Source of the DNA: Candidatus Bathyarchaeota archaeon
GTDB taxonomy: Archaea; Thermoproteota; Bathyarchaeia; 40CM-2-53-6
Assembly (NCBI GenBank): GCA_005888745.1
Contig: VBBS01000028.1
Coordinates: 50,375-114,374, forward strand
Reading direction: 5' to 3'
DNA length: 64,000 nucleotides
The position numbers and the translations under genes were made by a program. The stretch's first letter is position 1; the number at the start of each line of letters is the position of its first letter. Positions 54,476 through 56,435 of this stretch are shown here, in pieces. Below the pieces are notes generated by a model. That model made no database searches, was not told the origin of the DNA, and saw nothing but the letters and a program-made list of their open reading frames with translations.

Positions 54476-55084
54476 CTATTCCGCCATTTCACTCAAGCCA
54501 GCGAGTTCCTCGAACTGTTTCCTTGTAATTGCGTCCATGTCGAGAAGTCTCTGTGCCACGGTCGAGATTTTTGCGACTGTGTGCAGTTTGACTCCTTCCT
54601 TCATGAGATGCTGTTCTCCTCCTTCCTGCCTGTCGAGAACAACGAGTGCATTTTCGACAACGCCTCCTTCTCCGCGAATGCTCTGTAGGGCCGTGAGAAT
54701 ATTCTTGCCAGTCGTAATCACGTCGTCGATAAGTAGAACCCTGTCGCCTGGAGTTAGTATTCCCTCGACCGTTTTTTCTCTCCCGTGTAGTTTGATATCC
54801 TTCCTCGTGTAGACGAGAGGCTTGGACAGGGCGTAGGCAAGTACGGCGGCCCAGGGTAGCCCACCTGTTGGGATGCCTCCTATCTTGTCGATCCCCTCGA
54901 TGGACTTGGCACTTTTTGCCAAGAGATCCATGCATGTGCGAAACGCATCAGGAAAGCTCGGAATCACGCGGAGGTCCAAGTAGTATGGACTGATCCTGCC
55001 TCCTGACAATGTGAACATTCCAAACTGCAATGCTCCAGTTCTCACGAGCATCTTGGAGAAATCATCTTCAAGAGAACGCGGCAT
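54476..55084 (-). CDS. pyrE: Orotate phosphoribosyltransferase
   Basis: 202 residues. GALQFGMFTLSGGRISPYYLDLR is the N-terminal signature, GIPTGGLPWAAVLAYALSKPLVYTRKDIKLHGREKTVEGIL contains the Lys and loop residues that hold PRPP, and RVLLIDDVITTGKNILTAL is the PRPP-binding motif. It makes OMP from orotate in pyrimidine synthesis. The pyrD 3' end is at 63.7 kb, so the pathway is split in this genome. Confidence 0.93.
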   Translation of the reverse strand: MPRSLEDDFSKMLVRTGALQFGMFTLSGGRISPYYLDLRVIPSFPDAFRTCMDLLAKSAKSIEGIDKIGGIPTGGLPWAAVLAYALSKPLVYTRKDIKLHGREKTVEGILTPGDRVLLIDDVITTGKNILTALQSIRGEGGVVENALVVLDRQEGGEQHLMKEGVKLHTVAKISTVAQRLLDMDAITRKQFEELAGLSEMAE

Positions 55085-55163
55085 CTATAGACTCATCAAT
55101 CCATCTTTTGACTTTAAAAGACGCGTGAAGCCTTTGCGCATGAGCTGTCGGGTTCAGGTATAG

Positions 55164-56435
55164 CGATTTAAAGCCAAGCTCAAGATACAACGACAGCGGG
55201 GAGCAAATTCGGAACTCTGGATTCCTTACGGCGAAACTGATATTCCGATCAGAGTTCCCGATGACAATTTCTATAGGATTCTGGAACCCAAGAAACCAGC
55301 TGCGACCACAAACCTCTCCGTTCAGATCGACGAGTCTCTCTCTCGTCCCGTCAATGACTTTTCGATTTCCAGCATTCTAAAACCGGGGTCAACCGTTGGT
55401 GTTCTGATAGACCCCATCGTTCCTTTGCACGTTCAGCAGCAGGCGATTGAGATAATCAGGACGAAGCTAGTGAGCCTTGGGGTTACAGAGGTCAAGTTAT
55501 TCTCTCGCAGTCGAACATCAAACGTGGAGGCTCGAGCGTCCTCAGTCGACCGTGGCGTTAAGAGCATTGACCCCAAAGGGGGAGCTTTTACCGATGTTGG
55601 CAAAACTAGTCAAGGGACTAGTGTCCTTCTCGAAAGCGAACTTCTCGCTTGCGATGTAAAAATTAGCCTGAGTATGGTTACCCCTCACTTTGCGAGCGGT
55701 TTCACAGGCGGACCCGATATTCTGCTTCCAGGTGCATCGTCCCTAGAGACGATTGCGAAGAACAGAGCACTGATGGTCAAGGGTGTCCCAAACCCGGGTC
55801 AAACTGTAGAGAACCTGGTGCTCTCAGACGCGTTTGAGGCCTACAAGATGGCGGGCGTCTTCTACAGCCTCACCTTCGTGCCTGATGGCTGGGGGGGAAT
55901 CGACTCGGTTTTCTCAGGAGAGCTGGAAGCTGTGTTTCGGGAGGCGGTCCCGCGGTATCTGCAGGTTCACAGTCCAAGAGTAGACCGGAGGTCCGACGTT
56001 GTCGTCGTTGCCGCCGGAAGGTTGTTGGGCATGGACCTCTACCATGGTGTCCGTGTCCTCTCCAACGCCTTCGGAGCGGTAAGGAAAGAAGGAACGATCA
56101 TCCTTGTTGCGGAGTGCTCGAAGGGCATCGGAGACCAAGGCTTCCTAGAATTCTCCAGACGATTCCCGGAAAAGACGGAGCTAGTCTCAGAGCTTCGGCA
56201 CAAGTTCAAGCTTGGAAGCCATGTCTCACTCTTCCTACAAGACGCTTTGGAGAGGCACAGAATACAACTCGTATCTGTACTCCCAGATCTTTACGCCAGA
56301 GACTCGTTTAGGTTGAAGCCCTCGCGAACGGCGTCGGGCGCCGTCCAACAATCCATTCGAGTAGAGGGAAAGGAAGCAAGAATCCTGATCATAACCAGAG
56401 GAGACCTGACTCTGCCAACGGTCACACCAGCCTAG
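55164..56435 (+). CDS. larA: LarA-family nickel-pincer lactate racemase-like protein (DUF2088), no standard start codon
   Basis: The canonical-start frame begins at TTG 55425, but an uninterrupted frame runs 87 codons upstream. It reads ELWIPYGETDIPIRVPDDNFYRILEP, the invariable start of LarA proteins, with no ATG, GTG or TTG; an in-frame TAG at 55161 ends it. TTTAAAG at 55168-55174 is a possible TATA box, and GGGGAG lies at 55198-55203. The rest has TPHFASGFTGGPDILLPGASSLETI with the cofactor-binding His and KNRALMVKGVPNPGQT. It probably interconverts 2-hydroxyacid stereoisomers using the nickel-pincer cofactor made with LarC (1.7 kb). The protein may start at a non-standard codon or be a damaged gene. 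Confidence 0.8.
   Translation, partial: RFKAKLKIQRQRGANSELWIPYGETDIPIRVPDDNFYRILEPKKPAATTNLSVQIDESLSRPVNDFSISSILKPGSTVGVLIDPIVPLHVQQQAIEIIRTKLVSLGVTEVKLFSRSRTSNVEARASSVDRGVKSIDPKGGAFTDVGKTSQGTSVLLESELLACDVKISLSMVTPHFASGFTGGPDILLPGASSLETIAKNRALMVKGVPNPGQTVENLVLSDAFEAYKMAGVFYSLTFVPDGWGGIDSVFSGELEAVFREAVPRYLQVHSPRVDRRSDVVVVAAGRLLGMDLYHGVRVLSNAFGAVRKEGTIILVAECSKGIGDQGFLEFSRRFPEKTELVSELRHKFKLGSHVSLFLQDALERHRIQLVSVLPDLYARDSFRLKPSRTASGAVQQSIRVEGKEARILIITRGDLTLPTVTPA

Follow-up and report, generated by a model that had tools for sequence, protein, structure and literature searches.

Translation starts are given as AUG, GUG and UUG in one review, which does not mention ACG or CUG (PMC7531240), and a 2021 review describes elongation and termination as the only stages at which non-canonical translation had been demonstrated in archaea (PMC8211752). 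Among 61,358 AUG starts in prokaryotes, Belinky et al. (2017) counted 2 that had switched to CUG and 1 to AUU; as in the genomes described here, starts drifted to non-NTG codons between close relatives, although those counts rest on annotated starts and the term ACG is absent from the text (PMC5622118). A non-standard start under a start-selecting initiation factor is found in Streptomyces, where the GTC start of sigR is repressed by IF3; sigR is a single bacterial gene, whereas the starts described here affect many genes across one genus of archaea and would involve another factor (PMC5472188). Chloroplast starts that are created by C-to-U editing provide a further parallel in that the DNA has ACG at the protein start, but the ATA and ATC cases reported below do not fit such editing (PMC9845219). 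Among the matches listed in a search of the open literature, none described starts of this kind in Bathyarchaeia, and none described initiation at ACG or UCG in any archaeon.

The window, a 64,000-nt stretch from the draft genome of a Candidatus Bathyarchaeota archaeon (G000; 2.2 Mb in 75 contigs), carries a larA-like frame on its forward strand at 55164-56435, open after a TAG at 55161-55163 and up to a stop at 56433-56435. A frame scan bore out the initial annotation, which had found no ATG, GTG or TTG between that TAG and TTG 55425. Given an NTG share of 4.9% of codons in long ORFs of G000, 87 codons without NTG would be expected by chance with a probability of about 0.013, and the gap by itself is not decisive. 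It becomes decisive because NTG is likewise missing from the start in three other species and because the first in-frame NTG falls at differing positions in these four genomes (73, 66, 56 and 40 codons past AAT), which leaves them without a common internal start.

The comparison covered 12 orthologues whose N-terminus could be read: 11 from the genus (G000 included) and one, G018, from a sister genus. It shows that the start column (55209-55211) is TCG in one group of the genus (G000, G016, G005 and G010; 4/12) and TTG in the genus's other orthologues (G007, G014, G009, G017, G011, G008 and G012; 7/12), with ATG in G018 alone (1/12). The three other TCG orthologues are 79-88% identical to that of G000. 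Relatives present in a named collection are metagenome-assembled genomes (Crenarchaeota archaeon 13_1_40CM_3_52_17, Bathyarchaeota BA_25 and BA_3), of soil origin according to our reading of the scaffold names. The conserved protein begins with the codon right after the TCG column, and the adjoining Glu-Leu-Trp-(Ile/Leu)-Pro-Tyr-Gly is kept in 11/11 genus members, the Glu-Leu-Trp codons showing no more than two silent differences within the TCG group. Over codons 2-72, pS was 0.30-0.54 and pN 0.06-0.13 in all 6 pairs of TCG genomes; by this measure the larA N-terminus is under purifying selection. We infer initiation at the TCG (55209-55211, plus strand) from the start column of the 12 readable orthologues. 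The larA-like CDS would then occupy 55209-56435 on the plus strand (408 codons and a stop). The main alternative start, judged from the same orthologues, is an ATT at 55221-55223 on the same strand; that column holds ATT in the whole TCG group, G007 and G014, ATA in 3, TTG in 2 and GTT in G018. Carriage of larA is not universal in the genus, as 6 of the 18 genomes have no match at 1e-40 and the orthologue of G003 (C45) was matched only in pieces, the N-terminal one being interrupted by a TAG and a TAA; the G003 copy is perhaps decaying.

Upstream of the start column little is conserved apart from the block ATAGCGATTTAAAG, kept in 11/11 genus orthologues and present as ATAGCAATTTAAAG in G018, and a stretch just before that block in six genomes. 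The TATA-like box and the GGGGAG mentioned in the initial annotation are both there. TTTAAA (55167-55172) lies within a conserved, promoter-like block, GTATAGCGATTTAAAG, at 55158-55173 on the plus strand, and the GGGGAG (55198-55203, plus strand) matches the Shine-Dalgarno (SD) consensus. Scored against that consensus, the best SD-like match ends 5 (G000), 5 (G016), 8 (G005) and 8 (G010) nt before the TCG. The same annotation had let LarA coding begin at 55164; the comparison places its onset at about 55206-55211 instead, the frame of 55164-55205 not being conserved, and on this evidence 55164-55205 would be promoter and leader. The stretch common to six genus genomes (55139-55163) is ATG-AGC-(AGT/TGT)-CGG-like, precedes the TATA-like box and may be a regulatory site between pyrE and larA. 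The divergent neighbour pyrE (54476-55084, minus strand; family match above cut-off) starts with ATG in G000 and G016; in G005 and G007, the other genomes in which its N-terminus was read, the first codon after a stop is ACG.

Unusual starts extend to other genes of the genus, and the phenomenon is, on comparative evidence, wider than the initial annotation had it. About 634 kb of G000 was set against 628 kb of G005, with smaller segments taken from G016, G017 and G018, and a case was accepted where a relative had NTG in the same column or an in-frame stop lay a few codons upstream. Cases were picked by eye and non-blind, since automatic start-column scans were noisy and gave many wrong onsets. 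Where NTG would be expected, genes of the genus carry ACG, CTG, ATA or ATC, or TCG in this comparison. In addition to pyrE, ACG is found genus-wide in eL24 and SecY, in the NADPH-dependent F420 reductase of G000 and G005, in a DUF4331 gene of G000 (TTG in G005), at G000:C33:247401 (GTG in G005), in G005 and G016 in a gene near G000:C33:127523 (ATG in G000), and in eL40 of G018. CTG occurs in uS9 (10/18 in the genus), in aIF2-gamma of G000, at G005:C12:121929 (ATG in G000 and G016) and at G018:C34:102799 (TTG in G000, ATG in G005 and G016). ATA stands at G000:C20:48694 (ATG in G005) and ATC in aIF2-gamma of G005; an ATC in a RibD-like gene is a weak case, with an in-frame GTG 5 codons on in G005. 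The ATA and ATC cases led us to drop a rule by which the third start base is always G. Candidates for TCG, besides larA, are gatE in G000 and G005, where it is the first codon after a stop and lies 8 nt past GGAGG (first NTG 105 and 97 codons in, respectively), and a DUF655 gene, which has TCG in G016 and TTG in G000, G005 and G018. Every TCG candidate has a rival start a few codons downstream: an ATT 4 codons on in larA and 2 on in the DUF655 gene, and an ATA 2 on in gatE of G005.

Four genes (eL24, SecY, eL40 and uS9) were followed across genomes; for each gene, matches occurred in 53 to 59 genomes and the 30 best loci were read. The resulting figures are contrasts and not rates, as the genes were picked for looking unusual in this family. 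For eL24, ACG was present in 15/15 readable genus loci, ATG in G018 and G020, and a standard start in 13/13 loci outside the family. SecY had ACG in 17/17 genus loci and in G018, ATG in G019, and standard starts in 10/11 loci outside the family, the exception being G026 with TTG one codon on; no secY match was found in G016. The secY of G000 (C18, about 87454-88927) was matched as two overlapping pieces in separate open frames, which suggests a frameshift in the assembly. eL40 had ATG in 17/17 genus loci and G020 and ACG in G018 (standard in 11/11 outside). For uS9, the 18 genus loci comprised 10 with CTG, 7 with NTG and one unreadable (G014); G018 had TTA with a GTG two codons upstream, G019 had no NTG in the column and G020 had TTG, while 8/9 loci outside the family counted as standard (in two of these the start is displaced from the column by one or two codons) and G039 had CTG. 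Taken together, 42/44 loci of the four genes were standard outside the family.

In an uncurated scan, homology across the family border began at least 10 codons before the first NTG in 21/220 ORFs from the set of G000, G005 and G016, against 12/243 ORFs from four distant genomes, a difference that is not significant (Fisher p = 0.07); an initial asymmetry test, likewise uncurated, gave 40/221 versus 21/198. Some of the distant cases look real by sequence. G029 (C2), which belongs to another family, has frames offering CTG, ACG and ATT starts; the CTG frame is presumably pheT-like, and the ACG, in an ABC-transporter-like frame, lies 8 nt past GGAGG. Given these likely unusual starts, the habit probably extends beyond this family and may merely be more pronounced within it.

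The initiator tRNA looks ordinary. A match to GGGCTCATAACCC was present in each of 7 genomes searched (for G005, among the matches listed), and ARAGORN called a tRNA-Met (CAU) in the G014 locus but made no such call in the G016 locus. We considered and rejected an initiator-like tRNA whose anticodon would be CGA: its pattern gave a single isolated match in G016, and the 20 matches listed for G000 did not include it. SUI1 (aIF1) had 2-3 matches in 18/21 family genomes (those of G002 being partly fragments), versus one match in 33 and none in 7 of 40 genomes outside the family, and never more than one. Two copies in G000 (C43; L108:496-705 and L108:18496-18705) have SUI1 as their only Pfam match and show no N-terminal CxxC stretch like that in the aIF1 proteins of G018, G020 and the outgroup with which they were compared. 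eIF1A is not expanded, with one copy in 19/21 family genomes and none found in 2. In Pyrococcus and Sulfolobus, aIF1 reportedly helps to reject starts that are non-canonical (PMC6237735). Haloferax, like this family, has a second aIF1-like gene, and its deletion had little effect (PMC3828320); here there are up to three SUI1 matches per genome, known from sequence only. Extra aIF1 genes are thus a possible cause of relaxed starts and a lead only, given the Haloferax result and the unusual starts of G029, which has one SUI1 match.

In our best explanation, larA is an intact gene whose translation begins at a non-standard codon. That initiation at larA is non-standard in some form seems very probable, and for the more specific reading, in which UCG 55209 is the start and the lineage has relaxed its start-codon selection, we put the probability at roughly 0.6. 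The ribosome would be placed by the SD-like motif and, in operons, also by the upstream gene that has just ended; relaxed start selection would let the ordinary Met initiator tRNA (anticodon CAU) be accepted at mismatched codons, and the product of larA would be a 408-residue protein beginning Met-Glu-Leu-Trp. Reinitiation may contribute as well, since several of the cases closely follow the stop of an upstream frame. A tie between the extra aIF1 (SUI1) genes and the relaxation is speculative. More tentatively still, and with the odds somewhat against it, UCG may be a true, evolutionarily kept initiation codon in larA, gatE and the DUF655 gene, in a family whose start checkpoint has been rebuilt by extra aIF1 paralogues and in which ACG, CUG, AUA or AUC and even UCG are ordinary.

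UCG has two base mismatches to AUG, and we know of no proven UCG start. The nearest competitor keeps non-standard initiation and moves it to the near-cognate AUU at 55221, giving Met-Pro-Tyr-Gly and losing Glu-Leu-Trp. This codon has one mismatch to AUG and is ATT in all 4 TCG genomes, and the ATA and ATC cases in the genus and the ATT-offering frame of G029 are in keeping with its use. It lies, however, 17-20 nt from the SD-like motif, Glu-Leu-Trp is retained in every genus orthologue compared, members of the TCG group differing there only silently, and distant homologues with ATG begin ahead of the Glu-Leu-Trp stretch; we consider initiation at AUU unlikely. C-to-U editing of the mRNA, known from plant organelles (PMC9845219), would present the ribosome with a standard start, since a single change turns ACG, CTG and TCG into NTG. 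It would not do so for every non-standard start found, because the ATA at G000:C20:48694 and the ATC of the G005 aIF2-gamma gene are not convertible to NTG, and editing is accordingly a quite improbable account.

Initiation at UCG has also to be weighed against readings in which the start is standard or the gene is damaged. As the initial annotation stated, an in-frame ATG at 55140 stands ahead of TAG 55161; it is ATG in five other genomes as well, and expression from it by readthrough of the TAG, or by frameshifting, is conceivable. The ATG nevertheless precedes the TATA-like box, its frame and stop are not shared by G016, G007 and G014, and inspection by eye from TTTAAA to TGG in G000, G016 and G010 revealed no ATG, GTG or TTG in any frame. 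The same position and lack of conservation speak against taking the ATG-TAG pair for the trace of a 5′ lesion, as had been suggested. Readthrough was rejected for larA, where we regard it as very improbable; at gatE, where the upstream frame ends in a TAG directly before the TCG, it stays a rival. Equally improbable is a pseudogene that has lost its start, or a miscalled base in the assembly. Replacement of most LarA active-site residues, the six genus genomes without a match and the broken G003 copy would suit a dead gene, but the replacements recur in TTG and ATG orthologues, the frame is intact over 409 codons in each TCG genome, and pN is well below pS. The recurrence of TCG in 4 genomes that were assembled separately argues against a miscall, as does that of ACG at SecY in 17 genus genomes. 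Of the two possibilities left by the initial annotation, a non-standard initiator or a recent nonsense or frameshift lesion, the comparison therefore supports the former; a sequencing error or fresh lesion was rejected, as the four species share the TCG and the N-terminus is purified in all pairs.

If initiation at UCG and the related codons is confirmed, this genus, with ACG fixed at SecY and eL24, would offer a natural setting in which to examine the strictness of the archaeal ribosomal start check and whether aIF1 copies tune it. Gene finders limited to ATG, GTG and TTG would shorten or miss such genes.

The predicted product aligned over its full length with the malate racemase Mar2 of the LarA family (PDB 6d6z; E 4.8e-33). 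In Pfam searches it scored 76.3 bits for Lar_N (cut-off 23.3) and 35.5 bits for LarA_C (cut-off 25), which places it in the LarA-like fold family; against the NCBIfam racemase equivalogs the best score was 209.5 bits, below the cut-off of 500. In LarA we take K184 to be the pincer-cofactor Lys and H200 the Ni-binding His. Unlike in Mar2 and LarA, these positions are replaced, by Asp, Glu or Ala and by Arg, respectively, in 11/11 family orthologues that include the region (that of G014 is cut), and H174 (Pro-His) is kept in the same 11. The larA-like gene perhaps does not encode a nickel-pincer racemase, and we refrain from naming it as one. A gene for LarC, which acts in nickel pincer cofactor synthesis, is present at 1640-2920 in the same window and scores above both NCBIfam cut-offs.
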